From Citrus sinensis (Eukaryota; Streptophyta; Magnoliopsida; Sapindales; Rutaceae), in assembly GCF_022201045.2 (NCBI RefSeq), contig NC_068558.1, forward strand, positions 49,703,501 through 49,767,500: a stretch of 64,000 nt of DNA, read 5' to 3'. Positions 42,697-64,000 of this stretch are shown piece by piece. The position numbers and the translations under genes were made by a program. Numbering within the stretch: position 1 is the stretch's first letter; each line of letters begins with the position of its first letter. The notes below the pieces were generated by a model that made no database searches, was not told the origin of the DNA, and saw only the letters and a list, made by a program, of their open reading frames with translations.

Positions 42697-45600
42697 TCAG
42701 TGCCTGATAGTAAGCTCAGCCCTGAGGTGGAGGATACCGTTGATGAAGTAAAGACTATCATCCGCCATGAAGGATGTCCATGGTATGGCAAATAAGTTTC
42801 GGTATCCAACTGCCTTGCCTCCAGTGAATGTGTAGTTGCCTTTGTATTTGCTAACAAACTCCTCAGTAGGCTTTGACCTGGCTGCAAACTCGTAATCCAC
42901 AGCAAAACTCACTGACCCCTTTTCCTGCATCCCCAAGAACAACCCAAAACAATGGAAAGAGCTCTGCTGGTCCATGTTGCAGTGTGCAGAGAGGAAGAAC
43001 CCTTGCCCACCCAAGTGAAATGCTTGAGAGTAGACGCGTCCAGATGGGAACAAATTTTCACACTCCTCCCGCTTCAAGTCCAGGTAAACCACACATTGTT
43101 GCCGAGGACGCTCAAATTCTACTACTTTGACGGGCCGATACTTGTATGCACGTTCAACAAAGCGTCGATTCAAGGTGACCGACTCCTCTGCCGCCAAGGT
43201 TCGTTGTCGATGTGGGGCTTCAGCCTTAAAGAACAGAGCTTCAAGCACTAACTTGGACGCAACATCATGATCAAAGTCATTACAGGTTAAAACCTTCTTT
43301 AGCTTCCGGCAGGTCATGTGAGGAAAGCGAATGAAGCGTGCAAGACGTGAGCCCAAAACCTCACGTCGCTCCTCCACTCTCGGGTACTGGGCTCTGGCCC
43401 ACTTTAACACAAAATCATATACAGCATCTTCAGAAGCAATTTGAAGATCATCACTAGACAATATTGCCTCAACTCCAGCAAGGGGCAAGGCCATTACCTC
43501 ATCTTGGAACCTGGTAAAAATGAAAACCTCATGCATAAGCTTCCCAAATATTAGAAGCGTTAAAGTCTCACAAGCATTTAAACCTTCTAAATAAGGAATC
43601 CAGTAGAACAGTCAAGAATACAATCCCAATCAAGCAAGAACCTACTTGGTCATGTCCTTATATCGAGATGCAAGGTACTGTCTCGCAGCATCGGTCAATG
43701 GCTGGACTGCTTCACCCATCAGGACACTGGAGGGAAGCTCCAGATAAAGCAATGCAGACTCTGGAGTCATGGGCATATTCCTCAATAGACGGCTGCAGTA
43801 TCGCATGCATGAAGCAACCTCAAACTTGTCCGCAGCCATAAGCACATCAAGCAATGCAGGAGCTGCAGTAGTCGATAAAGTATTGCTGTACATAAAATTC
43901 AGAAGTTCCATGAGGGCAGCTTCCTCTGCTCAAGAAAAGAAAGAACTTATTAACAGTAGCACTGGTAAATTTAATTATCCAATAATAAGCAAAGGACCTC
44001 AAGCAAGAAATCTTACAAAGATAAAGAATAATTATTTATCAAATAACAGCCAATAAAAATTGACCATACCAGATGCATTGATACGCAGCGCTACATGTCG
44101 TTGTTCTGACTCCTTCATCCCATTTGAGAATAGCTACAACAGATAAACAAAAAAGATTCAGAATCATGTGATAGAAAACATCTATTAGTGATTGCACCAA
44201 AATTTTAAAAACACCACAGAGCAAAATCATAACCCTACTTTGTAGAAAAATGGACTTTTTGCCGCTAAGATTGGAGAGCTTATGTGTAATGTTTTAACTC
44301 TCACAACTGTAGAACAATCCATGCTCCAGCTTGACTCATTTCCATTTGCAGCTTCATCACCTGCAAGAGTCACAACATTCAGAGTAGAACGACCATGGAC
44401 AAATCCAAAACAGATAGCCAAAGAGTTATAGAAAGAAACATATTCATTTACTCTAAAGATTACACGAGTTCTTCATCAAACAACCCATTAAACAAAAATA
44501 ATCTACCAAGTGTTGTATTGGACATATAATGCCTTATCGAATCCAGAAACCTCATGGGCACATTATGACATTGTTCAGTCTTAAACTAAAGACTAACACA
44601 TGCACAAACCACCACCCCCCCCCCCCCTGGGGCGCGGGAGAAAAAATAATATTACTATATCTTATCTTCCCAATAAGTACACAATCTATTAAAAAAAAAG
44701 AAAGGTCATACAGGACACTTACTCATTACTAATTTGACAGAACGAAAAGATCTGTATACTTTAAAGAAACACCAAAAGGAAAATGAAAATTCATAGAAAA
44801 CCTTTTCACTACCTGAGGGTGACCCTTCAATCATTGCCTCCACTTCCTCATCTTGGTTTTCACAGCCCACACAATCATCCATATCGGGCTGGTTTAAAAT
44901 CTGCTCCTCAGGGCAAGCAGAGAGATCCAAACCTGAAAATTAGTTGTAAATGCCAATCAACATCAAACCATATCATATGCCAGGGAAGCAAGGAAAGGCC
45001 CCCATGCTTATGAATAGGCTCAAACATTCACTAATAAAAAAGTAATACAATCTTTATTCTTACACATTTTCCAAGCCCTAAAAAGACTCGTAGGCAGATT
45101 AAATCTTTTTCCCACAACAGAAAATAGGCTAATATAACATATGAGAACTCATTTTTTGCAGCCAATCATCCACAAAGTATTTGCTACATTAACTCAGCTT
45201 TATATGATGAACAGCACAAATCCCCCGCCCCAACAATATTTTAGAACAAAAGAAAATCAAATCAAAGCTTCAACTAGAATTCTTCATTCAAAATGACATT
45301 GATTGGACACTGTGGGTTATATGCTTCCATGAATTATACCAGCTTTTACGAGACCAAACAACAAAACTCAAAATTTAGACTGCATTACGTCCTCCTCATT
45401 TTTCAGGCACAACAAAATCAAATTTTGATAAACAAATTACAGCTCAAATCTCAAATCTCAATATTCACTTTCCTCAGGTTTCTCACAGCTGCAAAACAAA
45501 GATGCAAACTTTCAATTGGCCAAAACCACCCTCCTTTCTATCTTTATCCACAAATATCTAGCCAAACAAACAGTAACCATACAGGAAAATTGGAAAAAAA

Positions 45601-45878: not shown

Positions 45879-48062
45879 TATGAAAACCCCCCACTCTCTC
45901 TCTCCCTTGACTCAATCTCTTTCTCAAAGAAAGAGAGGATCGGAAAAAAAAAATGCACAAATGTTACGAACTTGAAACCCTAAAATAGTGAGCTGGCGGC
46001 GTTATCTATAATTGCAAAGAGCAAATGGCTAGAAAGAAAGCATAGAATGATTAATGAAAAATGAAATGAATGAATGAAAAACCGAAGCCCACGTCCCCCC
46101 CACCGTCGCCTGCCCTGGTTCATATATATAGAATATGTTATGTTGTGCGTGCTGGTTTCGTTTTGTTTGGTAAATTTGGTTCCTTCATTTGTTTTGTTTT
46201 GTTTTGTTTTGGTCCACATGCGTGATCGTGTGTGTTGGAGTATGGCCAACCGTATATTGTTTGACAAGTTTTTATTTTTATTTTTTATGTTTTAATCCTT
46301 TAAGGCGGCCTTTGAATTTTTGTTGTATTTCTTTCTCGTTCTTTTCCTTTTATTTTGTTAGTGCCGACGTGGATAACGGAGTGGAGAGATTCAACTGATT
46401 TTTTTTTTTAGTCCTAATGATAAGATCAATTAATTTTATTATGAAAGAAGTTATAATTTAAAAGAGATATTATTAAAAATTTATTATTTGAAATTATTCT
46501 TAATACAAATAATATAGAGATAAAGGATTCATGACATTAATAATTAATGTCAAATTCAATGTATAAAAATTAATAAAATAGATGGATATAGTTTTAAAAA
46601 AATTAGTACCTATGTTTATATAGCATTTGAAATATGCAAGTTATCTTCAAAATCTAAAAGTTTATATTTTTTTTAATGTTTTTCTCTGAATGTAAATTTT
46701 GTATATATTATCTAATGATTTAATAACTAATTCTAAAGAATAAACTATTATCTCAAATAGTTTTAGAAAATTCTTTTACTGTATTCAAAACATTTAATGT
46801 AACAAAACATATATATTTTTTACTATACATATCATTTTTATTATGTGAAGGCATATTTCCCAATAGGAGGTATAGAAAAATAATAACTTATTGTTATATT
46901 AAGTTTATTCTCATTTATTATTTTTAAACGAACATGTTATATTCTGTGAAAAAAAAAACACCATCACATTATATTCAATCCAAATTTTTAACTGTATGCA
47001 GCTGCATGGTTCAAAATTTTACACAATTTTAATTTTTTTCTTTTCGTCATTTTTTTTAGAACTTGTGAGTTGTTACTTGTTACAATCATTTACCTTTATC
47101 AACATGGTGATAAATTTGTAAATGAAATATTATTTTTCTTGTAATTTTGAATACTTTAACTAGGATTTATAAAGTACAATATTAATTCAAAATATATGTT
47201 GATAAAGCTCACAAATAGTAATTAAAATTCTAATATTTGGATCTCAACTACATGATTCACTTAATTATTAGATAATAAATTTCATAATTAGTAAAATTAA
47301 TATTTTATCATCGAAGATTTGAATATTACATCAATTAGGATATAAATTAGGATCTCTAACATTATTCATCTCCCAACTATTTAATTTCTATGAAGGCCAA
47401 AGCATTAGTATTTTAATGCATAATTTTTTTTTTGAAAACTATATATCCCAAATTTTTATCTTAAAAAAATTATCCTAATTGATGTGATATTTACTAATTA
47501 GTTGATGAGATATTATAATTAGTTTATTTAGATTTTTAAAAAAATTACTAACCGCCGCTTAATTAATTAATTGGTAGTGCATTGACCACTAATTGGAGGG
47601 AAAACGAAGGAGAGCCCAAAAATACAAAATGATGGACGGCTACAATTAACAATTAATGGAATACTTAGTCTAATGAAAGGAACCTGATTATGATTAATAA
47701 TTAAATTTTATTTTCACGGGTTAGGCGACAGGCGACCAAATCATAAAAATTAAAGTGACTCCGCGCCTTAAGAAATTAATAAATTCGACTCTGCCTCCTA
47801 TTAATGATCAATTCACCAAACATACATGCACTATCTGAGTTGCAATAATGGCATTCTTGATAACTGTTATTTGGTTGAGATAATAAATCTCTTTTTTTAA
47901 AATAAAAGATTAGAAGTTTAAATCTGCTCAAATTTTAAGAAAAGAAACTAGATTTGTCACATTGTCAATGAACTAAATTAAAAAAAAAATCACTAAACAT
48001 AGATTAATAATTTTCGCAGGTCCTTATCTTGGGACTAAATATTGCCTGATGCTTGTACAAAA
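45879..48062. other. BTB upstream region and AT-rich gap
   Basis: This is the BTB promoter followed by very AT-rich DNA. A GTTTT repeat lies near 46186-46210. No gene is seen. Confidence 0.4.
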
Positions 48063-49181
48063 GGGTAATTTTTAAAAACCTCTCATGAGATTTAAGCCTG
48101 TTGCAAGTAAATGGTGAAAATCATTTTATTTGTAAAAAACCTCCTACCATCAGTTAAAAATTCCATTGACTAACTGTTAACTTTGAAAAGATAATATTAC
48201 CCCCAATAATAATTTATAGATCGACACAACTAAAGTACAAGGGCTGAAACTTATGATGCGTAAACCACTGACTTTATTTTTTTGATATTTTTACCCTCAC
48301 AATTCTAAATATTTACAATTTTATAAGTAATTAAAACAATTATTTTCACCATGATCAAGTTATTGATAATTCCTTAAAATCTTAAAAAAATTAAAATTAC
48401 AAATCTTAAAATTTATAAAAAAATATGCTACTGTTTTTCTATTAAATTTTCTGTTGTTTCTCGGTAAATTCGTTGTTATTTTGTGTATGACGCTTGCCCG
48501 AAAACGGTCACGATATATTTTGAATGGGTAATGATGGGGATTGATAGTAAAAGTTTGTATTTCTTAAATTTTTTTACATTTGACAACTCACTAATTCATG
48601 TGTAGGTCTATTTAAAATTTGTTCTTGTTTATGGAGCTTGTTGGAAAATTGTCATAATGCATTTTGAATGGGTAATGATGGGGATGGGCAGTAAAAGTTG
48701 TTTGTGTTATTTGAGCTTCCCGAATCCATTAAGAGTAGAGGGGAAGAAGAAATGCAAATTGTTTGTGTGTGTGCCGCTTGTGAGCCTTAAATTAGCGTGC
48801 AAGCCAATTGTCCTATAGCAAAACAATTATATATTTTTTTTAAGTTTGTAATTTTTTTAAAAGATTTTAAGGAAATATCAATAACTTGATCATGGTGAAA
48901 ATAATTATTTTAATTACTTATGAAATTATAAATATTTGGAATTGTAAAGGGTAAAAATATCAAAAAAATAAAGTCAGTGGTTTACGCATCGTAAGTTTCA
49001 GCCCTTGTACTTTAGTTGTGTCGGTCTATAAACTATTATTAAGGTAATATTATCTTTTTAAAATTAATAATTAATCAATGAAAATTTTAACTGATGGTAG
49101 GAGGTCTTTTACAAATAAAATAATTTTTACCATTTACTTGCAACAATCTAAAACTTCAAGGGAGATTTTAAAAAATTATCC
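48063..49181. mobile_element. Mutator-like non-autonomous element, 1.12 kb, with very long TIRs
   Basis: The arms at about 48063-48424 and 48832-49181 are inverted copies of roughly 350 bp. Both begin GG(G/A)TAATTTTT and share long blocks such as CTTATGATGCGTAAACCACT (left) and its complement on the right. A perfect 10-bp duplication, TTGTACAAAA, flanks the element (48053-48062 and 49182-49191). The length of the arms and of the duplication are typical of TIR-type MULEs. The central 400 bp carry an imperfect direct repeat spaced 144 bp apart (TTTTGAATGGGTAATGATGG near 48518 and 48662) and no transposase. It needs a partner for movement. Confidence 0.88.
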
Positions 49182-49537
49182 TTGTACAAAAATTTGAATA
49201 ACGACTAGGGGCAAAAGAAAAATACAAAATTTTCAAAGTGAAGAAGGCAAAATTCAAATACGATTTGGAGAGATCCTTCTGTCAAGGTCATGTCACACCA
49301 TCGTTAATAGACCGTGATATTATCAGTACTTGGTAAAATAATTAATTAATTTCTGCCAAAAATTGTTCGACAAGCAGGCAACCTCAGAGTGTAATGCAAC
49401 AAGCCAAAAATTGGTAGTCTCGTCTTAGTAACTTCTTCCTTCGCTTTCCCGGCCAATTCCTCTTATTTATCTTCTTTTTTTATCGCAACGTACACTGTAA
49501 GCTGCAAGAGCAAGACACACGCAACCACAGGAATTCA

Positions 49538-50200
49538 GGGTGCGTTTGACGTATTATGTTATATTATGTTATATTATATTATTTTAATATTGATATATTA
49601 TATTATATTGTATTATATTAGTACTGTATTATAATAATATTATACAATATTTAGTGCTATACTGTATTGTATTATTTTTTTAATTAATTTAAATTAAATA
49701 TTATATTATATTAATGTTTTTATATTATATTAATATATTTAAATTGCATTAATATTTTATGTTATTATTTATATTATTATTAATTTTAAATTAATATTAT
49801 TCAAATTTATTCATATTTAAATATTTTTATTAGCTATAATAAATTATAAATTTATTAATAAATTATAATGTAAAAATAAAAAAAATATACTATTATTGAA
49901 TGATAAATTATTTATTTATTAATTTATATTAATAATTATAATGTAAAAACAAATAAAATAAAATATTATTAAATTAAAAACTATATTTATTTATTATTTT
50001 AGTATTATAATAATAATAATAAAGCAAAAAGCAAAAGTTAAAAGCAAAAGAAAAAAAAAAAAAAAACAAAGCTAATGCGTCAACTGACGCATTAGCCTCC
50101 CACCCCAATCCCTTGTCATGTTTTCCCAAACATAAATTTAGTATTAACTTAATGTAAATAGTAATTTAATACTATTTTAATACTACAACCAAATACACCC
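49538..50200. mobile_element. MITE copy A (GGGTGCGTTTG family)
   Basis: The left end reads GGGTGCGTTTGACGTATTAT. The right end, read on the minus strand, reads GGGTGTATTTGGTTGTAGTA. A TCA triplet flanks each side, fitting a 3-bp duplication as made by PIF/Harbinger-type elements, although the family call is tentative. The inside is AT-rich. Near the right end an A-run is followed by a 26-bp palindrome (50071-50096) and a C-rich stretch. It is closely related to copy B, which starts 19 bp later in the same orientation. Confidence 0.8.
50071..50096. repeat. perfect palindrome in MITE A
   Basis: Arms GCTAATGCGTCA and TGACGCATTAGC are separated by AC. The counterpart in copy B lies at 50864-50889. 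Confidence 0.95.
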
Positions 50201-50219
50201 TCACTTCACTATAAGTTAT

Positions 50220-51004
50220 GGGTGCGTTTGACACACTATATTATATTACATTGTATTACATTATTTTTATGTTGGTGTATTGTATTATATTGTATTACAT
50301 TAGCACTGTATTATAACAATATTGTACTATGTTTGGTGCTATATTGTACTGTATTAATTTTTAATTATACTATGTTTGGTGTTGCACTATACTGTATTAA
50401 TTTTTTGTGATTAATTTATATTATATATTTATAAAATAATATTTATTAGTACTTAAAAAATCTAAATATAAAAGTCTTATATTTTAGAAATTTAATTATA
50501 AAATGAATTGTGCTAATATTTTATATTATTATTTATGTTATTATTAATTTTAGATTAATATTATTGAAATTCATTCGTATTTAAATATTTATTATTTATT
50601 ATATTATATTATTTAAAAATATTAAATATTAAATATTAATATTACAATAATTAAATAGTGTAATATTAAATTATATTTTATATACTTTTAAGTATTTATT
50701 ATTAATCATATTAAATTATAAATTTATTAATAAATTATGATATAAAAATAAAAAAATAAAAAAATAATATTATATTATAAATTAAAAATTATATATTTAT
50801 CAATTTTTATTATTATTAAGTAAAACTAAAAGTTAAAGTTATTTAAAAAAAAAAAAAAAACAAGCTAATGCGGGAGTTCCCGCATTAGCACGCCTCCCGA
50901 TGCCCAATCCCAATGAGGCTCAATTGCTCCCAAACATGTTATTGGTTTAAATTAATGCTGGGTCCACAATTAATCTTATGCAATACCACACACCAAACAC
51001 ACCC
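50220..51004. mobile_element. MITE copy B (GGGTGCGTTTG family)
   Basis: The left end reads GGGTGCGTTTGACACACTAT. The right end, read on the minus strand, reads GGGTGTGTTTGGTGTGTGGT, and a TAT triplet lies on each side. The order of parts is the same as in copy A: AT-rich body, A-run, 26-bp palindrome (50864-50889), then CGCCTCCCGATGCCCAATCC. The 63-codon frame at 50222-50410 lies wholly inside this non-coding element and is not a gene. Confidence 0.8.
50864..50889. repeat. perfect palindrome in MITE B
   Basis: Arms GCTAATGCGGGA and TCCCGCATTAGC are separated by GT. It has the same length and position as the palindrome in MITE A, with two paired differences in the stem. Confidence 0.95.
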
Positions 51005-51254
51005 TATAAGAACACGGACTTGATTTCTTACTTTAATTTGACCGTGCACATCTGACATCACAGAATGTGGAAGGTGTAAAAAAACGGATAGTTAGCCTCA
51101 ATTTTAATTAATTAATGAAAGCAACGACATATATTACGCATAAAATGTAGAGAAACAATTATTCAACAGAAAGCGAAAAGAAAAAAAAAAGAAAAAAAGA
51201 GGAACACTGTAGAGATAGAGAAAACGGTGAACAAGTGTATGTTACACAACACAC

Positions 51255-51448
51255 ATACAGGAGGTGCTCCCTTCAATCCAAACAAGGACAGAAGAAGGCA
51301 AACACGTCCCCGAGGTCATGCAAACCCTTACGATGCGCATATATATATATCTAAAGTGTACGTCACAGAGGTATCCACGAACCAGCTGACGGGTTAATTA
51401 CCCTCACTGCTTCCTCATTTTGGAGTAAAGGTAGCTAGCTCCATTTCA
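51255..51448 (-). ncRNA. MIR159: MIR159-family precursor, locus A
   Basis: On the minus strand the 3' arm at 51262-51282 starts UUUGGAUUGAAGGGAGC. This is identical to canonical miR159 over its first 17 bases, but it ends ACCU where the usual form ends UCUA. The 5' arm at 51417-51442 (GGAGCTAGCTACCTTTACTC) pairs with it with a few mismatches. The upper stem contains GGGTTTGCATGACCT, which locus B shares at exactly the same distance: 34 nt from the mature 5' end. A long upper stem beyond the miRNA duplex is typical of MIR159/319 precursors. miR159 represses GAMYB-type MYB mRNAs. A TATA box lies upstream at 51572-51579. Confidence 0.82.
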
Positions 51449-51571
51449 GTAACACCCAAAACCTAGTGGACTAGCAGGCGCTGCACTCTGAAACCTAAAC
51501 CCACAAAGACAAGAGGAGAAAGTTCTGTTGATGTCTCTGAAGGGACTTTTGTATATAGCTAGTAACTAGGG

Positions 51572-51579
51572 CTTTTATA
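51572..51579 (-). promoter_or_regulatory. TATA box of MIR159 locus A
   Basis: It reads TATAAAAG on the minus strand, about 125 bp upstream of the hairpin. Confidence 0.5.
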
Positions 51580-53057
51580 TCGAGAACCGAGAACGGTGAT
51601 TGAGATGAGCCCTAGCTAGCTAGCAGAAGCCAGTGGACAGACGACGAGAATCGGATAGGATTTTGACATTAATGGGGGAAATCTGTGAGGATAGATTTTC
51701 TCTTGAAACGAGACAGCTGTGTAGTGTGTAAAGTGTTGTCTAACCTAATATAAATCTCTGAGTCTGACAATAGTCGAAACACATATCATTTCTAATGGAG
51801 GCGGAGGCCACGCCACAGCCCCACGCCCATTAATCTTTCTTCTTTCCGTTTATCCTCTTTTCAAATTTCACAATCTGGGTTGTAACTAGGCCAAGTGTAT
51901 CCTACATTGTATCTAACATTACACTTGTAATTGCACCCTAAAATCAAACACGCGCTTGAATTTGTTGACTGCAATATTTCTGTTGATATACATTACATTA
52001 TATTGAACGTTATGTAACATAGCATGATCTATTTAAGTAATAACTCATAACTGGCTTTTTTAGCAACTTACTGCAAATTCATTTGGGTTATTGGAGTGAT
52101 CTAGTTATTATGACACTCGACGTGTGAGATTGTAATGCTATAATCTTTAAATGCGAGCCCGAGGATTTCAATGGTAGAAAATATAGTAATAATAATAATT
52201 TTGAGGGGGATCATAACCAAATAACAATAAAATGGGAGGAAATATAATATCCTCTAAAATTCACATGCAAATGCAATTGCATTAAATTAGAGAAAATTTT
52301 TGGTGTTCCTAAAACATTACTCCTTAACCATTCACTATTTACTATGTATATATGCAAATTATTAAGATTAATAAGTATATACATGACGAACAATAAAGTA
52401 TCTACTATTTGATAAGTAGTGCTCTAAGAGCATCAAAGACTTTTCCTTCATTAAATACCCTAATCTTCGTTGATTTTCTTTTACTTGGCTCCATATTTGA
52501 TGGTCCATCTAAGGCTTCAACGTAATTCTGAGCAACCAAGTTAGCTGTGAAATTATATTTATACTAATTTACTAATACTTATTACTACAAAATAATTATT
52601 AAAGGGAAATTAATTTTATTTAACTAATTAAATCAATTAATAATATGACATGTTATCAGTATGATAGTCATATAGAGTTTTATTATGAAGTCAGAATTTG
52701 TTGAAACTATCAACAGCATATCATACATGTTCCGTAAATTTTACGAGATGCCATCTAAATTGATGGGGAATTTATAAATGTCACCGTTCCATAAACGTTT
52801 ATGGCATGTCATTATGACACTTGACATTAGCAAATCTGTTCAGCGCATTTGACGCCCCTTTTTATTACCTTTCCTGCCTTCTTGCAAAGCACACTCTGCA
52901 GCTGTCGTCGATAGTACACGACTCATCATCAAATTAACACATGCTGAACTTTATAATTCATCCAATCCAACCATTTATATTATTTTAATTTAATTAAATA
53001 TCCATCTCTTTTGATCGAATGCGTTATTAGTTGAGCATGAGATTGCTGTGTGTAAAT
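51580..53057. other. AT-rich intergenic DNA
   Basis: No gene is seen. This is upstream DNA of MIR159 locus A and then AT-rich spacer. Confidence 0.4.
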
Positions 53058-53070
53058 TCCACATGTAGCT

Positions 53071-53386
53071 ACCAATGGGCCTTTGGTCCAGTGGGAGAGC
53101 CCTTGCACTTAGAATAATGAGTGCAAGGGTTCGAGCCTCCATGAAAGTATTTATGGGGTTTATTTACAATCCTTCCTCAATTATCAAATAATTGAGTGGA
53201 GTCAGTCTATTCCTCATAAAAGGTGAGTAGAGTAGACAGCCCTCGAATATTTGAGAGGATTTGAAGAATTTAGGCAGCGCTTCAGAGGAGTACATGCCAC
53301 GATGAAGGTCCCAATTGTAGAATCTGTTTATAAATATTAATTATAATACCTACAGTCCTGTATAACAGTATTAAAAAAAAAAAAAA
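53071..53386 (+). mobile_element. tRNA-derived SINE with a 13-bp target-site duplication
   Basis: The head is plainly tRNA-like, with A box TGGTCCAGTGG and B box GGTTCGAGCCT separated by a stem whose arms CTTGCACT and AGTGCAAG pair. The body has CCTCAATTATCAAATAATTG and GAGTAGACAGCCCTCGAATA, shared with the SINE at 40.7 kb. The A-tail is at about 53373-53386. A perfect 13-bp duplication, TCCACATGTAGCT, flanks it at 53058-53070 and 53387-53399. Confidence 0.92.
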
Positions 53387-53399
53387 TCCACATGTAGCT

Positions 53400-54304
53400 G
53401 AAAAGACAAGGAGAGCAAGGCATAGAATCCCAACAAATTAAGAAGAATTTTTTGACAGTACGTAGCATCAGTGTTGGCAAAAGCCATTTTTGGGCAAATT
53501 CTTTGTTTAGGGATGATATTGCTGAAGCCCGAATCGTGCTTATTATTTTATACATCATTCTACACCTATCATAGAAGGTAAAGAATGATGCCTTTCCGGT
53601 TATATAAATATTTATGTATCCTTTAACTCAGTATCCATATATAATTCTATTTCAGACCTTTAGATGTAATAAACAACTCAGACAGGTTACTTGCTTTACG
53701 TTTTGAAGCATATATATAATTGGATTAAGGATTTTCCTTCCACAATTTGCAGAACAAGATACAGTAATAACTAAAATATTGCTAATTCTAATAAGATCCC
53801 TTGAGAAGTGTACGTAATAATTTTTTTATTTTATTTTAAGTTTCCTTGCTCTTATTTTCAAATTAAACGTAATATTCTTGGATTTAAGCTATTGACGTTT
53901 TGTTACCACAAACTATAATAGACTAACTAATTAAATTATGCTTTGAAATTACTAGGGCAGTAAACTAGCTATTTGTATATTAATTATATAAACGAAATAT
54001 GTTGAAGGAAGATAGGCGAAAATTTCCTATTGTTTCTTCTATCATTATATGGAATGACGAAAATTTCCATTATGCTTATGAAACAAAGAGAGAGAGAGAG
54101 AGATTGATCTCACGTTAGTGGAAGGATAATTTAATATTTATAATGCTTATTGAGGGGGACGGTATGGGAAATTTTAGTTTTGTTAATTAATGTATCTTGT
54201 TCTTGTATTATATGAATGAAACTATATTGAGGAGTCCACAGGGCGGAGAGGATGTGAATGTTAAAAATTACAATAATATTATCGGCTCATCTTATTGCTT
54301 TGCT
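53400..54304. other. AT-rich intergenic DNA
   Basis: A short GA repeat lies near 54089-54103. No gene is seen. Confidence 0.4.
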
Positions 54305-54312
54305 TCATTTCA

Positions 54313-55059
54313 GGGAAAATTTACACCAATAGTCATAAAAATTTTGGCTTTTTCCATCTTAACCCCCCAGACAAATTTCTATCAACATTAGCCATAAAAG
54401 AACCTTTGAGACTAAAATACCCCTCTCTCTCATCTCTCCCCCAACACTCTATTTCACCCATCTCTCCCAAACCGAACAAACTCCCATCATCAGCGGTAAC
54501 ATCAGCCCTCGTCGGTGGCGGCTTCATCCCTCATCGGCGTCCGATCTACCATCTACAGTCTTCAATAAAGCCTAGGTTAGTTATTTTATTTATTTTCATT
54601 AATACATAGTGGTATGAGTTATTTTCTGAACTTGGTCGAGAGTTTTAGTGAACTGCAAGTCGTGGGTGAATCTGGCGACATGTTGCCTGTCGCACCAATC
54701 GTTGGGCGACAGGCAGCCTGTCACCAGATTCACGCACGACTGGCAGTTCACTAAAATTCTCGAGCAAGTTCAGAAAATAACTCGTACCACTGTGTGATGC
54801 CGATTAGTATTGGATCCGGATAGATTATGATCATATTTCACTTTTATCGTTGTCTTTTGTCGTCGCTGTTGGTTGATGATTCAAGAGTGAAAAACTGCCT
54901 TTAGTTTGACGAAAGAGGAGAAAGAAAGTTGCTTTTGGTTTATAAAGAAGGACAATTTGGGGAGAAAAGCGTGTGTTTGGCTAATGTTGATAGAAAAAAA
55001 ATTGAGAGGATTAATTGTAAAAATAACAAAAATTTTATGATTATTTTTGTAAATTTCCC
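54313..55059. mobile_element. Mutator-like non-autonomous element, 747 bp, with an internal snapback
   Basis: The terminal inverted repeats are about 85 bp. The left end starts GGGAAAATTTACACCAATAG, and the right end, read on the minus strand, starts GGGAAATTTACAAAAATAAT. Both contain TCTATCAACATTAGCCA. The flanks share TCATTTCA (54305-54312 and 55060-55067), extendable to 9 bp if the first G is shared. A MULE is favoured over hAT by the GGG terminus and the long arms. The left interior (about 54420-54560) is C-rich and unlike the surroundings, so it may be a captured host fragment. A long snapback follows at 54604-54797. There is no transposase. Confidence 0.8.
54604..54797. repeat. long hairpin inside the MULE
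   Basis: Two arms of about 92-95 bp face each other with roughly 10-15 mismatches and almost no loop. The left arm has GAACTGCAAGTCGTGGGTGA and GCGACATGTTGCCTGTCGC; the right arm has GCGACAGGCAGCCTGTC and CGACTGGCAGTTCACTAAAA. Transcribed RNA would fold into a near-continuous stem. Confidence 0.88.
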
Positions 55060-55704
55060 TCATTTCAGACGCTCATGTTACTTAAAAGACATGAAATGTG
55101 TTTACTCATAAATTTCATATATATGATAACGGTGCAAAATTCTTGATGATTTATCACAGCTTTGCTACAGTTGTGATTTGGGAGAGTACTGATTTTGTTG
55201 GCAATTATCGCACTTAAATCTTCCATCTCGCGCGATCGTCTCATTTTAATTAAAAAAATATATTTGCCATAATATCGCCCAACCTGAAACAAAGTTCCGC
55301 TGGCCACCAAGTGCTATTAAATAAATAAATATACAATATTTCATCAATTAACAAATACACAACCATCTAAAAATTTAAAAAAAAAAAAAAAAACTTACTC
55401 ACTTTATTACGTTTATAAAAATAAACAATATATCTGAAGTAATTATTTAAATAACAATCAATCCCTTTTGATCCAATGCATTATTAGTTGAAAATGAGAC
55501 TGTCTTAATCTTGAATTATGAGATCATTCACGCGATATCATATGCATCTAAAAGTCGCATGATTGTGTGAATCAAAGCGAGATTAAGGCAAATCTGGAGG
55601 TAATTAAAAGTATAATTTATTTAATTATGAGGTCAAGCACAATGCTAATTAAAGGCCGACAAAGTCAACAGCTTGGGAACAACGATTTATAATGAAAATT
55701 GTCC

Positions 55705-56103
55705 TCATACTTTACAAAAACAATCATTAGGCGGGCCAGACTGATAAGGCGGAGAATGTTTCCTGCATACGACGCCGTACCGGGGGATATACTCTCCCTT
55801 GGACTTGCAAAGCTCCGTGCAGTCGGAGTCGTTGTTACAATGCCCAGCGTATAGCAAAGTGCCGCCCGGAGGCACTTCTGCGACTCCATACCCCGCCGCT
55901 GAAATTGCATAATTATATGATATATGCTAAAATTAATTAATTAATTCATCAATTAAATTTAGTTGCACGAGACGACTGATTAACGATGCATTCTTAATTG
56001 ATTTGTAGGCTTTAATTTAAATGTACGAACCTGAAGTGAGCAGAACGGCGATAAGCGTGACAAAGAAGACAAAGAGAGCAGAACGAGTGTTGTCAAAAGC
56101 CAT
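55705..56103 (-). CDS. secreted cysteine-rich peptide, defensin-like
   Basis: Two exons, 56031-56103 and 55705-55898, give 88 residues with an in-frame GT-AG junction. The intron follows the signal peptide, as in most plant defensin-like genes. The signal peptide is MAFDNTRSALFVFFVTLIAV followed by LLTS. The mature part has six cysteines in the order C-x5-C-x3-C-x13-C-x14-C-x-C (HCNNDSDCTELCKSKGEY, then GVVC, then DCFCKV). The C-x3-C and C-x-C pairs resemble the cysteine-stabilised alpha-beta fold. It may act in defence or in cell-to-cell signalling, but no specific family was recognised. It lies between two MIR159 loci, in a region otherwise free of protein genes. The second exon looks like an unrelated 81-codon frame when read in another phase, which would hide it from simple gene finding. 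Confidence 0.82.
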
Positions 56104-56557
56104 TCTCACCAACGCTAGATTTAGTTTGCTTGCGGAAGATGCTGCGCTGAATCAAAGCTTATTATTTATACAACATTTTTGCATATATTATAGAAATTAA
56201 AAAAAAAAAAAAAACAACAACAATATTAATGCATTTCTAATTTTACATCTTTTACAAGGATTTGGCATCCATATATGAATCCATCTTTAAATGGAATTAA
56301 GTATCTCATACAGCTTGGCGTAGGGGTTTTTATGTTCTGAAGGGTATGCTGGGATTGATTCTCTTAAAATAAATTAAATGATTTTCACTCACTTAAGTCA
56401 TATACATATTTAGAAAATGAAGTAATACTTATATATTATGCTCCTACGTTTTTTTTTTTTTAAGTATTGAGAGATATTTCAAATTTTATGTCAAATGGTA
56501 TGTCATTTATTAAGTAGTTAGTAATTCTTTACAGAATCTAAGTGAAATGAAATTTTA

Positions 56558-57317
56558 GGATGAGGTTATTTATATTCTATATTTTACATTGAACACTATT
56601 TTACTTTGTACACTATTTCAATAAATTTTAAAAATTAATTTTTACTCTGCACACTTTTTCAAGTATAAAAAATTATCAAAACAATCCTCTATTTATATCT
56701 TACCATTATCTCATCCAATTTTATTCTTTATTAAAAGAAAAGAGTTCCATTCTATAAAATTCTATTATTGTTATTTGTTAAAAAGATATCAAATCTCTCT
56801 TTATCAAATTATCATTCTTCCTCTCTTCAAATAAAATATTTTTTCTTTAAAAGAATAAATTTCTCTTACCTTTATTAGAGAGTTATGGACTTGAGAGTCC
56901 AATTTGAATTTGTAATTGACAATCTTCAAGCAACGGCAACATGTGCAGCTAATTTCATTTTCATTTTCCTTTTTTTTAGGGGTTTATTTTTTCAAAATAA
57001 TTTTACTTATTTTTGTGCATAAACAAAAATTATTTTTCAATTTCTTTAGTATACAGCTTGTTGGATTTTATTCAACCTTTAATATTTTCTTTTACAATGA
57101 TGAATTTGATTTGATATTGAAGAAAGTTAAATTAATTATAATTGGATTATTGAATTGGGAGGGTGTATTAAATGGTGTCAAGAGAAATAATATTTTATTA
57201 ACTTAAATTAAATTATCCTTATTAGTAAATCACATTAAGGGTACTTCTAAAAGAACATTTTTTTATTAAAATTGAAATGTTCAAAGTAAAATATAGAGTG
57301 CAAATAACCCCACCCAT
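56558..57317. mobile_element. non-autonomous DNA transposon, about 760 bp
   Basis: The inverted ends match over about 38 bp. The left end starts GGATGAGGTTATTTATATTC. The right end, read on the minus strand, starts GGGTGGGGTTATTTGCACTC, and both continue into TATATTTTAC. The inside is AT-rich and non-coding; a 96-codon frame at 56916-57206 is low complexity. The terminus is similar to that of the 34.5-35.2 kb element, so both may belong to one family. The target-site duplication is unclear. Confidence 0.65.
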
Positions 57318-58560
57318 TACTTTAATAGAAATGACAAAAATTTGATTCATAAGGTTGTTAAACAACACTGAGGATTTCAAAAGAAAAATCAACCAAAGTA
57401 GTTACAGTCATTAGGATTGCATTTATTGTAATTATTAACCACATATCACAATATCAAAACAATTTATAGTAAATAATCCTCGTCAATAATATTGAATAAT
57501 GAATAAAATAGTTAATAACTGTACTGATCAATAATCATAATAATGTTAATTGTGTTATCAGTTAGTAGCGATTAGTGATATGTATTGCTGCTTAGATTAT
57601 GCCTTTCTTTTTTCTTTAACTATGTTCAATCAATATGTTTGTTATGAAATTTTTACAATAATTTTTGTCGCGTTATTAATAAATATATCATTTTCTTACT
57701 TAATAAGAGAATATTCTTCCCACGTAATCAATATCATAACGATAATAAAAAAAGGGGTAATGGTTAATTTTCCTGATATAAAGATAGTTTTTAATATAAT
57801 CTCACACTCACAGACACTTTTAAAGAAGGGGGGAGAGAGAGAGGATATATGTAGTAAATAATGCTCATCAATCAGTAAAATCCTATATGTTACTAGTTAT
57901 TTTTTTGAAGTATCTAAATACAAACTTTTATACCTTGATTTCTTTGTTAATAAAAAGTCGATTTGCAATATTGATACATATATATGTAGAGAAGGGTTGG
58001 GGGGGGGGGGGGGAATATGAAATCAAAATCTACCTCTAAAGGTAAGGAGTAACATTTTTAAGACTTACGTATAATTTATGGCTTGAGATTCAACACTTTA
58101 ATTGAAAAAAAAGAAGAAGAAAGGATAACATGTACTCCTCTAGAAATTAATACAGTGGAAAAATAATTCTAAACCCACTGAATAAAATGTCGCACGCATT
58201 TTCATCTAATTCTCGGAAAATTAAAGAGTTAGATCCTAGATTATGCAACCATTTTCAACTCTAGGATGTAAGATAATAAAGAAAAATAATTGATTAATTA
58301 ATAAATTTCATTGTAAAACAAGAAAGACATACAAATTGAAATCTCTTGTCATCACACAAGCTTAATTCTATAGTATCAACTCCTCTAATAATAATATGAG
58401 TAGCCCATTGGTTTCGTGCTCAAGCATAAAGCCGTGCATGTTACTACAAATAAAACCATATAGCATAGAATTAATTATTTAATTAGTTTTCAGATTTTTT
58501 CTGAAATATCTTACCACGAGTGCATAGATAGTAAAATAAATTGTGTAGTTAGATGGCAAT
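57318..58560. other. AT-rich intergenic DNA
   Basis: A G-run of about 17 bases lies near 57996-58013. No gene is seen. Confidence 0.4.
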
Positions 58561-58564
58561 TAAA

Positions 58565-58780
58565 AAGAATAAAGCTTACTTCACCACAAAAATGAAAAGA
58601 CAAAAGGGTGACCTAACCTCGTCTCCAAGCTCATGCAAACCCTATCCTCAAATATATGTCTGTTTGAGCAGTCAATTCATGGGCATGCATTAACAAGAAG
58701 CTAGCCTTGGTCTTCCTTTCACTTCTTTTCTTATTTGCGATATATATATATTATGATAGTCTAAGAGGCTTTAGATGCAT
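58565..58780 (-). ncRNA. degenerate MIR159-family relative, locus C
   Basis: On the minus strand the block AGGGTTTGCATGAGCTTGG and the following GAGACGAGGTTAGGT match the upper-stem segment of locus B (AGGGTTTGCATGAACTGGGA, then GACGAGGCTACC). The place of the mature arm, 58570-58590, reads UUUGUGGUGAAGUAAGC. This agrees with miR159 at 15 of 21 positions. The candidate 5' arm near 58758-58775 (AAAGCCTCTTAGACTATC) pairs only weakly. It is most likely a decayed or diverged copy, and expression is doubtful. Confidence 0.38.
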
Positions 58781-59380
58781 TTCAGTCCACTGAATTCTGA
58801 TATCTAGATTGGAAAAAAAAAAAAAAAATCTGCTGGGATTTTCTTCTCTGAATTGGCGATTTGCATGTCGATGTTATTGCTGAATGACATCTACTTTTCA
58901 CAGTTGGTTTGATTCCTCAATTTTTTTTCTTTTAAAAAACTTATACGTAATCAACTTTCAAAAGGCATCAATCCAATATTTGAATAATTAACCAAATAAA
59001 TAAAGTAATAAGCGAAAGTACAGAGAAATTTTTTATTATTTTATTTGTCACGTAAATAAATAAATAAATATTTAAAAAATTAATTAAAAGAATTTCTTTT
59101 CAGTGATACTCTTACTACCAAAATAGAGTAGTGAAGCCAACGACCGAAAACATGCCACATCGTCAAGTACATGAAGAGTTTATTAACATGTAAATTAACT
59201 TAAAAATGAATTAAAAAAAAAAAAGAAAAAAGAAAAAAAGCTAGCGTTCTTGATCTGGTGGGTGCATATCAGTAACTTGATTGTTGAGCCAATAAGAGCC
59301 CTTCAGTACCTGGAAGAAAGATAACGCAGAACAATATAAATATTTCAGGGGAAAGGCCAGTTAGAATAATGAGATGTCCA
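58781..59380. other. spacer between MIR159-like loci C and B
   Basis: AT-rich DNA with A-runs at about 58814-58828 and 59212-59238. No gene is seen. Confidence 0.4.
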
Positions 59381-59560
59381 TGAATGGAGCTCCCTTCACT
59401 CCAATACCAAAAAGATCAAGGTAGCCTCGTCTCCCAGTTCATGCAAACCCTTAGACTGCGCCACAGTATTGAGTCTGCGCAACCACGGGTGTTCATGGAC
59501 TAGCAGCCGTGGCCTACCATCACCTCCTTTCAGACTTGGAGTTCAGAGAGCTCCATTAAA
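59381..59560 (-). ncRNA. MIR159: MIR159-family precursor, locus B
   Basis: On the minus strand the 3' arm at 59385-59405 starts AUUGGAGUGAAGGGAGC and ends UCCA. It is a miR159 variant that differs from the canonical form at positions 1, 7 and 20. The opposite arm at 59536-59555 reads TGGAGCTCTCTGAACTCCAA and pairs with few mismatches. The base of the stem is a perfect 10-bp helix, AATGGAGCTC with GAGCTCCATT. The upper stem carries AGGGTTTGCATGAACTGGGA, shared with loci A and C. A TATAAAAG box lies about 135 bp upstream at 59693-59700. As I recall, poplar has a similar variant in its miR159 family. The alternative, miR319, would need CUGAAGGG with a different 5' end. Confidence 0.88.
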
Positions 59561-59692
59561 ACCCTAATTGCAGTTTCTAAACTACTAAACAAACTTCATT
59601 GCACCAACATAATATTGTAATGCTAAAACTTCAAAGCTATGCATGAAGTAAAAGAATAAAATTAGTTGCTGGACTTGGGAACCAAGATGGTC

Positions 59693-59700
59693 CTTTTATA
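59693..59700 (-). promoter_or_regulatory. TATA box of MIR159 locus B
   Basis: It reads TATAAAAG on the minus strand, about 135 bp before the hairpin. This is the same motif, at nearly the same spacing, as at locus A. Confidence 0.55.
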
Positions 59701-61136
59701 GCTAGCCTCATAAGGTGGGTGGGGGCTCTTGATGTAATTTGGAGCGTTGGATTTGAAACAAGAAACATGCATGTTTATGCAAAATCTGAGAATTAGATTT
59801 TCTTGTCTACAAATTAATGAAACGTTGCACTCCACATGGAAACTAGTGGTCATGGGTATCTTTCCCCTTTAACTTTACATTTATGAGTATTATTGGACGG
59901 CGTGACATATATCTTGGACTTCTAATTTTGTTCTTATCTCAATGATCTTAAGTTAAAGGTTAATTGAGAGTTTCAGAATCCGAATCCCAGTTGGTGATTC
60001 TTTCTACTAATGTTGGTTGGGATTATCTCAACCCTTTGATTTGTTTACTTTTCTAAACATGATGAGTGGGATTGGTGTCACATAAGTATTCTCACTATTA
60101 CTTAGAAAATAATAACAGTCCTGAGGGAAGGTTTCTTTCCACCGATTAGGATGCTTAAAGATTTTGAAAATTGTTTCCCTTCCTTTAATGTGGACCAAGA
60201 CTTAAAGCCCATCCTATATTTTAAAGGTTCTTTGACCTAATAAAGAGAACCCATCTGTAAATTTTCTCCCATTTTTTGCAGCAATAATGTAACGAAAATG
60301 TGACATTATTGTAGCAAATATGTGGGTGGCGCTCTTTATCAGTTTCGTCACATAAAAGATTAAAATGTCCGGTCAGTCCTGATATTGATTATGTTTAAGG
60401 GTTCACTAATGCAAAATTCCTGGTTAAACACTTTCTTTGAATCTTATTAGCTAATGGTGGATTGTCGGTCATTCGTCATGTACAAGTGTTTTCTTTAATA
60501 GTGCCAACTTTTTTTATTTTTAATGCATATGGAAGGAATCACTACTAATAGTCATTGTCAGCAACTATGTTCAGATGCTTGCTTTTCTTTTGATTAATCA
60601 AATTGTGCTAGAGCAAGTACACTATGACGCATTACATTATTGGTTCCAACAGTCGAAAGCGACTTCACATCAAACTAGATTTTGGCTTGTTGATGCTCGG
60701 ATTTGATCACACAAAAGGAGGTTCCTATGTTACAGCATCTGTAACACACACCCAAAGCAAATAGCACACGTGTCCGGACTTACAGAGAAAAAGCAATGCA
60801 AATGCAAGGTTGGGGGGTTGGCTGAAGCAGCATCTGTAACTTAGCCACCTCCCACACCAAAAGATACCAAGATTCAATATCTCTCAAGAGTCTGCACAAC
60901 CCTGGACATGTCTTTGTTTCCCTGGAACAATTACTTCAGTTACGAAGTTTCTTATCTTTAGGTGGTTCGAAGTAATTCCATTAATCAATGATAAGTGGAA
61001 ATCAGAGAGTCAGATAAAACTACATTTATGATCCAAAAGAAAAACACCATGGTGGGATTTAAATTTAGCTTGATCCGTGCAATTCTCATGTACATATGTA
61101 ACACCGAATCCCGAAAGTACAAGCAAATCTTTGCCA
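59701..61136. other. spacer before the coiled-coil gene
   Basis: This is MIR159 locus B upstream DNA and the 3' flank of the coiled-coil gene. A short palindrome, TGTTACAG-CAT-CTGTAACA, lies at 60728-60746, and half of it recurs at 60828-60840. No gene is seen. Confidence 0.4.
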
Positions 61137-63430
61137 TTAGAAGGAACTTTTAGAGGGTTTTGAACAAGAGTGCTGAGCTTCTAACCTTGCTTCCAGTAAT
61201 TTCTCCTTCAGGGTATTCACCTTCAAGCCTCTAGGTACTTTCAAAGAAGATTCGGATTTTTCAAAATCTGGGGACGTCAATTTTGACATCCACTTCTGCA
61301 CTGGACTTCCATGACTAGTGAATAAGGACTGAACATGAGAATCTTCCTTTAAATCAGTCTCAGGATGAACCTTATCGCCTTCTGATGATAAGGAATGATT
61401 TCTGATTAAGTCATCAACCACGTGATTTAATTTCAATCCACCAGCTCCATTGTGTTTGCTTTCTTCGGTAGCCCCAGTCTCTCCTTCTAGCTCACCCCGT
61501 TCCCAATCTGGAAACTGGGACTCGGTTCTAGTCACGTGTTCATGGAACCATCCTGGTAAACTGGACAAGTTATGACCCTTATTCCTTTTCCTTGACCTAA
61601 CCTTTTTCTTTCCTGAATTTGAATTTACCAATTCTTCAAGATGCCCTTTTCTTGCACTATCCCCATGCTGTTTAGAGCTGCCTCTGCTTTGTTTCCTGCT
61701 TGCACTCTTGTTTAGTTCTAAAACTTGTAAATCGACATCAGTAGAATATTCTTCATTAACAGTGTCTCGAGGAGCACTTACAGCCTCATTCAAGGGAAAT
61801 GACTCTGTAGAATGACGAGAGGAATGACTTTTCTTTTGCTCATTTGTGGACAAGCTACCACCTGTCCTTGATTTAGAGAAGTGCTTAGCTTGAAGGAAAT
61901 TCTCTATATCAAGACGTAGCTTGTCCAGAATTGTATTTTTATCTGAGAGACTATTTTGTGTTTCTGCAATCTTCATTTGCATCCGCTCATCAAGCCAAGA
62001 TTCCGAAATATGGAGGATTAACCTGTCAGCATTTTTCATATGAGCATGATCCATCTCTGGCTTGTGTCTTAGTAATCGCACCTCTTCTTCATAATCCCTA
62101 ATTCCCTTGGCGAACTCATCGCACAAGTTCTCCAGTAGAATCCTTGCTTTCCTTTCTCTTTCAAGTTCTTTCAGAATATTGGAGAAAGATGATTTCATAT
62201 CAGAGAGATCTCGAGCTAGCTTCCGATGCAGACTTTCTGAGCATTTCCGTAGCTTCCTCTCATCTTCAAGCTCATCTTTCCATGACTGAACGGCAGCTTT
62301 GATTCTATTTCGCTCCTTGTCTTTCCTGATAATTTTTTCCTCCGCAACTTGCTTCATCAAATCATTCACTTCTTGCCTTTCTGTTTGCTTCTCTTGCAGC
62401 AACTCCTTTATTTTGGTCTGAGAATGATCTAGTTCCATTTTTAAAGCTTTCACCAAGGCTATATCAGATACATGCTGTTCTTCAAGACTCCAGATTCGAT
62501 TAAGCACCGTCAGTAACTCCGTGGATGTTTTAAGGTTATACCTAGGCTTACCAAGCTTACCCCGAGAATCCAAAGAACTGGTGGGAGTAACTGCTGGGTT
62601 GTAAGCAGCCACCTGTACAGAGGAGGCGTCTAAATCCATTAAACTTATATAAAGAAGGTAAGCCAGCTTTTTGAATTGGACTGTCAAAAAGGCATAATAA
62701 ACTGACAGATAGAATTGTGAAGTTCAAATCCATTACAAGATCAATGTTAATACAGGCAGTCACTGAAACTTTATCAGGAACTACGGGACAAAATCTTTGC
62801 CTCTCTTATCATAACTAAAGCAACATTGAAACGTGATATTTCAAAACATATTGATTTCAAATTTCCGACATTCATGGATATAACAAATCAATTAATCATA
62901 GAAATTAAGGAAGATCTTGTTTGGCTCCTTAGTAGAACAGATGAAGATTATAATTTACAAATTTCAGTGGGAAAAAAAAATGGTGTCATGTGTTACATGC
63001 TTATGTTGATGCCAATTTGAAAAAGATGAGTAAGAAGATATATCCAAATGGATTCCTAAGCGCCATGCTCCCTCACATAACAATTTCCTTTGCCCTCTGC
63101 ATAATCTCTTTCCCATTTGATTCCAGTCCAGAAAAAAGAAGAAAACCTTGCAATGGAAGAGTCTTTGCCTATAACAGGCACATTGCTTGGATACACTCAA
63201 TACGTACTACTTATATTTCCATATATTTATGACTTTTAACCAAACCACAGAGAATCTAGTCTAGAGAAAAATTTAAGTAAATACAGAAGAATAGAGATAT
63301 TCACCTCCATTGAGTTATCATAACTGGCAGGAGATACAGGCTGCAGAGCATGACCATTCCTTTCGACTGATTCATGGTGTTTCATCAATGATGCACTGAG
63401 GTGCCTCCTTGAGCCACTAGCACTCTCTGG
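61137..63430 (-). CDS. coiled-coil 'myosin heavy chain-related' protein, 3' part (At2g46250 type)
   Basis: Two exons are visible: 63305-63430 (42 codons) and 61137-62612 (491 codons plus stop), joined in phase 0 by GT-AG. The gene continues to the right, so the N-terminus is missing. The core begins STELLTVLNRIWSLEEQHVS and goes on into a long charged coiled coil (KQVAEEKIIRKDKERNRIKA and HRKLARDLSDMKSSFSNILK). It then has the family signature LCDEFAKGIRDYEEEVRLLR and ISESWLDERMQMKIAE. The C-terminal third is hydrophilic, serine- and lysine-rich, with a basic patch (KKKVRSRKRNKGH). The family is plant-specific in this form. It has no motor domain, so the common name is misleading, and a role in cytoskeleton or scaffold work is only a guess. 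The open frame reaches upstream of 62612 into intron sequence, including an ATG at 62687 that I do not regard as the start. Confidence 0.9.
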
Positions 63431-64000
63431 CTGGAAGAATTGCAGGTCATGATTAGTTAACAGTATCAAACTACTGAAATAGATACTGGTAATTCCTCTC
63501 CAAGTTCACATTTTATGTCTTATTTACTTGTCTTTTCGCTTCTCTAAACACCACAGCTAGAAGGGAAAAAAGGGGAAAAAAAAATCGAACTTCTGAATTA
63601 CTTAGATTCAGTTTTCTTCTTTTTCACCATATGGCCAAATAAGCCTCCATCATATCACTCCATTATCCTTGTTTTGACAAACAAAAACCATTGAATTGGC
63701 AAATTCAAACAATTGATTATTAAACTGACATTAGTCTTTGAGTAATGAAGGAAGGAACACAAACCACCAAAATGAACTCGATGCATTACTAAAAAGATCC
63801 AGAGAAAAGAGGCCAGTAAGATAACGGGAAGACTCTAGAGCCACTTACATAATTGTAAATCATAGGAAAGCAAGTAAAACTTTCCGTTCAAAAAAACCGA
63901 AAGTATATAATAATCTCTCGTCAACAAATAACTGTTAACCATTAATACTTATTAGTACCCAAAACTTAAAAAAAAAAAAAAAAAAGAAACCCAGCAAGCA
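63431..64000 (-). other. intron of the coiled-coil gene running off the window
   Basis: Sequence upstream of the 63430 acceptor shows no further recognisable exon. An A-run lies at about 63969-63985. The first exons of the gene should lie beyond the right edge. Confidence 0.5.

Follow-up and report, generated by a model that had tools for sequence, protein, structure and literature searches.

MIR159 ranks with the oldest microRNA families of plants, and DCL1 is established to process MIR159/319-type hairpins in the loop-to-base direction. Genes of type 1 carry two conserved duplexes in a single long stem, with >60 nt from miR to miR*, and 231 MIR159/319 genes with this bi-duplex layout are known from 71 species (PMC3118147). 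Arabidopsis MIR159c (At2g46255), which lies between genes on chromosome 2, is a near-silent oddity of the family.

The window analyzed here, a 64-kb stretch of Citrus sinensis DNA, contains three loci (A, B, and C) on the minus strand that are related to the MIR159 family model of Rfam (RF00638). We consider it likely that they form an old MIR159 gene cluster at the probable ancestral MIR159c position, in which A and B were separated by an old divergence and not by a recent duplication. The sequence-only reading of this DNA had described two well-formed hairpins and a decayed relative, all of the MIR159 family. All three are present in their proposed places and on the minus strand, and their relationship to the family model is supported by RF00638 scores of 115.1 (B), 70.6 (A), and 27.4 (C) bits; "well-formed" is generous for A, which folds weakly.

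Locus B (59373..59565, minus strand) is a MIR159-type precursor hairpin of the long bi-duplex form and the only one of the three to pass the curated covariance-model threshold of RF00638 (115.1 bits against a gathering score of 74, E 1.9e-24 for the whole window). Folding, the check put forward together with the original reading, clearly favors this locus: the predicted structure has −91.4 kcal/mol (z −6.9), which none of 200 shuffles equals. Its predicted 21-nt mature miR159 on the 3′ arm (59385..59405, minus strand), located by pattern match, reads ATTGGAGTGAAGGGAGCTCCA, is identical to gma-miR159b-3p and f-3p, and has 3 of 21 bases unpaired in the predicted fold. The predicted miR159* on the 5′ arm (59533..59553, minus strand) pairs with the mature arm and shares 18 of 21 bases with gma-miR159b-5p. 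Toward the loop, the conserved block (ACR3; 59430..59450, minus strand), a family feature that opens with GGGTTTGCATGA, pairs in the predicted fold with its partner strand (ACR5; 59487..59506, minus strand). Upstream, TATAAAAG (59693..59700, minus strand) is a possible TATA box by consensus match only. Judged from its sequence, locus B is very probably an active MIR159 gene.

Locus A (51250..51447, minus strand) aligns to model positions 1–196 of RF00638 and falls slightly below the threshold (70.6 against 74 bits, E 1.2e-13); because this score is borderline, we name it a MIR159-type hairpin and a probable gene. The predicted mature miR159 on its 3′ arm (51262..51282, minus strand; 21 nt), assigned by pattern match and fold, begins TTTGGATTGAAGGG, carries an A at position 18, and has 4 of 21 bases unpaired in the predicted fold. 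This 21-mer had no match in the literature searched. The loop-side block (ACR3; 51307..51327, minus strand) is recognized by the fold and by its occurrence of GGGTTTGCATGA, its partner strand (ACR5; 51369..51389, minus strand) by the predicted fold, and a possible TATA box, TATAAAAG, lies at 51572..51579 (minus strand; consensus match only). In locus C (58561..58754, minus strand), the loop-side block is retained and the miR159 arm degraded; its score of 27.4 bits misses the threshold of 74 (E 0.014 for 4227 families and 16 kb). The fold of A exceeds shuffled sequences only modestly, with z −1.35 over 221 nt (22/200 shuffles as good) and z −1.79 over 186 nt (11/200); that of C has z −2.07 (5/200).

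With up to three mismatches allowed, the miR159a pattern has two matches, one at A and one at B, and none in 100 shuffles. GGGTTTGCATGA occurs three times in the 64 kb, always on the minus strand and once each in A, B, and C; from its start to the mature 5′ end it is 45 nt in both A and B, and the matching arm of C lies 52 nt away. The previously reported distance of 34 nt in A and B holds, because it was counted from the last base of the block. The upstream box said to be common to A and B was also recovered: TATAAAAG precedes the two hairpins by ∼125 nt in A and ∼128 nt in B; this 8-mer occurs seven times in the window on both strands counted together, and not at all between C and B. Judged by folds and block, A and B are both type 1 MIR159/319 hairpins, with a weak fold in A. 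No further MIR159 match was found in positions 1–48000 up to E 0.1, and the only other RF00638 matches in 48000–64000 are plus-strand hits at A and B, which we discarded as mirror images of palindromic hairpins. As expected of a plant gene, the bi-duplex DNA pattern was found neither in prokaryote genome contigs nor in viral contigs. Rfam matches to MIR403, MIR439, and mir-4529 at 54.6 kb were rejected as genes of those families; they score below threshold within an inverted-repeat element, and those to MIR403 and mir-4529 appear on both strands. Nor do we take covariation to prove that the three stems are under selection: with the consensus structure, 19 of 66 pairs are changed on both sides, but that structure was derived from the same alignment. 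With each locus's own fold, changed pairs keep their pairing no more than by chance (in six comparisons, between 321 and 1653 of 2000 shuffles attain the observed value).

Between the mature arms of A and B there are four differences in 21 bases. The B form shows three differences from miR159a, two and three from two grape miR319 forms, and none from gma-miR159b, and the A form shows three differences from miR159a and two and four from the miR319 forms; from the miR159c sequence, as we assume it, A differs by one. Position 7 is U in A, G in B, and C in the grape miR319 forms. The RF00638 consensus itself carries c at this position, so the model does not decide between miR159 and miR319. A separate MIR319 family gave no match in the Rfam search of 48000–64000. 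As far as sequence goes, the mature form alone does not tell miR159 from miR319. Shifted by one base, the B form equals an orchid miR159, and a related mature form is found in grape MIR159A and B. Against a GAMYB target site whose sequence we presume, the pairing penalty is 1 for B, 3.5 for miR159a, 4 for both miR159c and miR319, 5 for A, and 9 for C; B pairs with a single G:U, and A has one further mismatch. In soybean, the RNA identical to that of B has Cat_1 degradome targets that carry the annotations MYB33 (b) and MYB65 (f), and a carrot study that names the same 21-mer a miR159 gives it predicted TCP targets (expectation 5).

The loci are flanked on the 3′ side by exons of a BTB-BACK protein (42697..43929, minus strand; Pfam BACK and BTB in two frames), which we take to be LRB/POB1-like, and on the 5′ side by a long open reading frame of 528 amino acids (61137..62723, minus strand; no Pfam match), presumably an At2g46250-like coiled coil. 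The domain order reads AP2, LEA_2-like (below cut-off), aldose epimerase, MFMR-bZIP, BTB-BACK, the MIR loci, and the long frame without a Pfam match. Domain matches, together with the presumed gene order around Arabidopsis MIR159c, support the earlier proposal that the order here fits that region; domain content agrees with the At2g46255 interval, and the neighbors are putative orthologs of the Arabidopsis genes. A literature search did not find the presumed At2g numbers of the flanking genes together with MIR159c. The cluster probably sits at the ancestral MIR159c position.

The hairpins of A, B, and C are similar to each other (0/500 shuffles reach the score in 3/3 comparisons), whereas their flanks, about 550–750 nt each, are not: in 6/6 comparisons they align no better than shuffles, with 43 to 157 of 200 shuffles matching or beating them. 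Similarity beyond the hairpin, as expected of recent tandem duplicates, is thus not seen in these flanks, and for this reason we set recent tandem duplication aside. A single ancestral MIR159c locus copied locally in the lineage of this plant into A, B, and C would account for three loci on one strand within 8.3 kb of a single interval, for a C block nearest to that of B (90% identity over 30 nt; with the A block, 83% over 29 nt), and for 16 of 62 loop-side bases at which A and B jointly deviate from the Rfam consensus (9/35 in ACR3, 7/27 in ACR5). We nevertheless regard it as quite unlikely, given the unlike flanks, the 4/21 differences between the mature arms, and the presence of the B form in other families. 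Beyond the loop-side blocks, the resemblance between A and B is no greater than that of either to the consensus (miR 17/21 versus 17 and 19; whole hairpin 100/189 versus 99 and 106). Both the shared block and the spacing belong to the MIR159/319 family at large and are uninformative on recency. The first suggestion, that the locus grew through tandem copies within this lineage, is therefore not supported. The B 21-mer also exists in soybean and, with a shift of one base, in an orchid, which suggests that the A and B forms predate the Citrus sinensis lineage, barring repeated origins of the form; convergence can make a 21-mer identical in different species. For the old divergence of A and B, we propose an old local duplication or older separate genes; a common old origin by local duplication is possible in view of the loop-side deviations that the two share.

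We propose that A is an active or weakly active MIR159 gene. There is a somewhat less than even chance that A, like Arabidopsis MIR159c, is a fading gene, weakly transcribed, poorly processed, and without effect. The subthreshold RF00638 score, the weak fold, and the extra mismatch at position 18 to the presumed GAMYB site are in line with such decay, as is the very weak expression of Arabidopsis MIR159c with its hallmarks of obsolescence; yet A has an intact loop-side block sequence at the same spacing as B and an equally placed TATAAAAG, and it keeps an ACR, whereas Arabidopsis MIR159c is of type 4 without identifiable ACR sequence. A fading A is compatible with an old cluster. Locus C we propose to be a putative MIR159 relic. 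That its hairpin is no dead copy but is retained solely for a loop-side small RNA seems highly improbable: relative to B, the block is better preserved than the miR159 arm (19/21 against 14/21 identical) and the loop-side duplex can still pair in the predicted fold, but this contrast does not reach significance (Fisher p 0.13), changed pairs remain paired no more than by chance, and TATAAAAG is absent between C and B. Selective retention of the block was therefore dropped.

If A and B are active, each would have its own TATA promoter, from which RNA polymerase II would transcribe it. DCL1 would dice the long hairpin from loop to base, releasing the loop-side duplex before the miR159 duplex, and the 21-nt 3′-arm RNA may guide cutting of GAMYB-type MYB mRNAs. 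More tentatively, and on balance rather doubtfully, the MIR159c position could have held a two-form cluster (A form TTTGGATTGAAGGG..., B form ATTGGAGTGAAGGGAGCTCCA) since early angiosperms, with Arabidopsis MIR159c as its last degenerate remnant, which would explain the obsolete look of that gene. To the presumed GAMYB site, the dominant miR159a is a poorer fit than the B form. If an old two-form cluster existed, the decay of MIR159c would be one loss within a once larger locus, and the B form would become a candidate for a division of labor on GAMYB targets; otherwise, this is one more MIR159 cluster of a family that is itself ordinary.

Compared with known systems, B is closest to soybean gma-MIR159b and gma-MIR159f, sharing all 21 bases of the mature 3′-arm RNA and 18 of 21 in the star strand; our literature search returned no account of their neighboring genes by soybean gene names. 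A and B have the long bi-duplex hairpin in common with the MIR319 family, and the soybean RNA identical to that of B bears the name miR159, not miR319. Several MIR159 genes at one place, as here, have been described for soybean, maize, and sorghum. Arabidopsis MIR159c (At2g46255) resembles the present loci in its gene neighborhood, which is partly presumed. However, it is a single, very weakly expressed MIR159 gene of type 4, whereas the Citrus sinensis interval holds two hairpins with a loop-side block and a relic.

The window contains a real cluster of three MIR159-type hairpins, and RF00638 matches on the minus strand bear out the sequence-only reading of two hairpins (loci A and B) and a weaker one (locus C) on one strand. 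Locus B (59373-59565) scores 115.1 bits against a threshold of 74 (E 1.9e-24), is the only curated-threshold Rfam match in the whole window, and is confidently a MIR159-type gene. A permissive-threshold Rfam search of 48000-64000 yielded locus A (51250-51447; 70.6 bits, threshold 74, E 1.2e-13), probably also a MIR159-type gene, and locus C (58561-58754; 27.4 bits, E 0.014 for 4227 families), a relic of such a hairpin. Rfam searching of 1-48000 found no MIR159 up to E 0.1. At 7855-7975 (minus), MIR2619 (44.2 bits, threshold 113) and mir-981 (30.3 bits, threshold 51) both match below threshold.

Locus B folds well above its shuffles (z −6.9, 0/200 as good) and locus C is intermediate between A and B (z −2.07, 5/200), whereas locus A, previously described as well-formed like B, is unconvincing (z −1.35, 22/200; tighter stretch z −1.79, 11/200). 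Among 731 overlapping 200-nt windows across 46300-61100, only inverted-repeat windows at 54.6 kb surpass locus B in folding energy, and the best windows of A and C rank 16th and 41st. In a consensus structure built jointly for the three loci, 19 of 66 pairs are altered on both sides, above 500/500 shuffles and compared with at most 7 when the structure was slid. Because structure and count came from one alignment, the count was redone with each locus's own predicted fold; altered pairs then remained paired no oftener than chance in 6/6 comparisons of A, B, and C, and compensatory evolution in these stems is therefore not claimed.

A MITE-like, Mutator-like element (54314-55059) has 40-nt terminal inverted repeats (80% complementary) and a 9-bp target duplication recognized by eye (TCATTTCAG). 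Its core (54604-54795), a near-perfect hairpin with 90-nt arms (90% complementary) separated by 12 nt, is the strongest fold in 46300-61100 (−138.5 kcal/mol) and might give rise to small RNAs. In a large foldback element (48061-49183), inverted arms of 141, 93 (97% complementary), and 114 nt are nested within one another, and visual inspection suggests a 9-bp target duplication. Upstream of locus B, 200 nt at 60741-60940 (minus) form 34 long-range pairs (−57.3 kcal/mol); the permissive search of 48000-64000 returned no Rfam family for this stretch at E ≤ 1.

The mature arms leave 3/21 bases unpaired in B (59385-59405) and 4/21 in A. Both hairpins contain a loop-side duplex whose 3′ strand opens, 45 nt ahead of the 5′ end of the mature RNA, with GGGTTTGCATGA, in agreement with the shared block at equal spacing noted earlier; this 12-mer has three copies in the window, one in each of A, B, and C. 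Locus C retains the loop-side duplex, and its miR arm is identical to B at 14/21 positions; in a 206-nt fold only the first six bases of this arm pair with the 5′ arm, and somewhat more in a 241-nt fold. The shared upstream box is likewise present, TATAAAAG lying about 125 nt upstream of A and about 128 nt upstream of B; both are no more than consensus matches, and the 8-mer has 7 copies in the window, both strands together. The common block alone does not tie A to B, because it is a family feature (Li et al., PMC3118147): the RF00638 consensus carries the loop-side element too, at nearly equal spacing, and nested structures are reported in 82/88 MIR159 genes of 36 species (PMC9361848).

The hairpins themselves are alike. 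In local alignment against dinucleotide shuffles, all three pairs score above 500/500 shuffles, and BLASTN matches inside the hairpins, among the matches listed, comprise 76 bp at 72% (A–B), 30 bp at 90% (B–C), and 29 bp at 83% (A–C). Some other listed matches have E-values below that of the A–C hairpin match; four of these, inspected on the A side, have A+T contents of 83 to 98%, and the rest were given no weight. No similarity above shuffles was found between the flanks (∼550–750 nt), with 43 to 157 of 200 shuffles equaling or beating the score in 6/6 comparisons. A recent duplication larger than the hairpin is expected to leave likeness in the flanks, so this result counts against it, and tandem growth in this lineage, as proposed by the sequence-only reading, is not supported.

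Of 189 columns in the Rfam alignment, 100 are identical between A and B, compared with 99 between A and the consensus and 106 between B and the consensus. Within ACR3, the loop-side conserved block, they agree at 28/35 positions versus 21 (A) and 23 (B) with the consensus and have 9 non-consensus bases in common; within its partner strand ACR5, the values are 16/27 versus 12 and 12, with 7 in common. Agreement is 17/21 versus 17 and 19 in the miR, 13/22 versus 13 and 15 in the miR* arm, and 11/23 versus 10 and 13 in one of two spacers. This regional pattern is compatible with an ancient shared origin of the two loci, and shows nothing further. Of the two histories, an old cluster is likelier than recent tandem growth, albeit unproven.

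Pfam assigned families to 13 of 20 open frames from the window: AP2 (679-1719), LEA_2 (9480-10268, below cut-off), aldose epimerase (12.9-14.6 kb, 3/4 fragments, two above cut-off), MFMR with two bZIP pieces (18.0-20.7 kb), GDSL lipase, DUF1191, eIF-1A, and BACK with BTB (42.7-43.9 kb). The frame at 61.1-62.7 kb is one of the 7/20 without a Pfam match. The MIR159-type loci sit within ∼15 kb, where seven open frames of at least 90 amino acids have no Pfam match. The gene order fits what we take to be that of At2g46310-At2g46250 and its duplicate around At3g61600. The earlier placement at the MIR159c position, between a BTB gene (At2g46260) and At2g46250, agrees with the Pfam order; literature naming Arabidopsis neighbor gene numbers together with MIR159c was not found. 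MIR159c (At2g46255) is described as intergenic, on chromosome 2, and very weakly expressed (PMC2988730). A MIR159c context is plausible, and taken as one whole, an old MIR159 cluster at the probable MIR159c position is the explanation that we favor as probable.

The mature RNA of B is identical to soybean gma-miR159b-3p and f-3p (PMC3141666) and, after a one-base shift, to the Dendrobium orchid RNA Dof-miR159f (PMC9320484). It differs by one base from gma-miR159c (1069 reads in bean libraries; PMC3359237) and by three from CUUGGAGUGAAGGGAGCUCUC of grape MIR159A and MIR159B, each listed with an accompanying figure of 0 (PMC2831844). Given these identical or near forms in soybean, orchid, grape, and bean, the B form is old or recurrent. 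A carrot study names its sequence miR159 and predicts TCP targets for it at expectation 5 (PMC12980029). The 21-mer of A was not found in the literature searched by sequence. It is one base from the sequence that we take to be ath-miR159c. The latter sequence is published, e.g. from Brassica napus, where it is listed as a novel RNA without a name (PMC5983666).

Out of 21 positions, 3 separate B from miR159a, 3 separate it from one grape miR319 form, and 2 from a second such form in its own register; for A, the differences number 3 with miR159a and 2 and 4 with the miR319 forms. At the position distinguishing miR159 from miR319, the RF00638 consensus reads c, and the family therefore seems to span MIR159 and MIR319. 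By itself, the mature sequence does not settle the assignment of A and B; B is named miR159 after the published name of the identical RNA, and A because it is close to miR159c.

On the presumed sequence of the Arabidopsis GAMYB site, B pairs with a single G:U and without mismatches (penalty 1), better than miR159a (3.5); miR159c and miR319 score 4, A 5, and C 9. In the soybean degradome, Cat_1 targets of miR159b-3p and f-3p carry the annotations MYB33 and MYB65 (PMC6599275), and for miR159 GAMYB-like targets and loop-to-base processing are described (PMC6724108). The MIR159-type loci of the window would presumably be transcribed, processed, and engaged in targeting.

MIR159 clusters are already known in other plants. 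Soybean MIR159 genes include tandem and head-to-head duplicates (PMC3481472), cucumber has four on one chromosome (PMC12058866), and in maize six form one cluster on chromosome 8, with two in sorghum at the matching place (PMC2773440).
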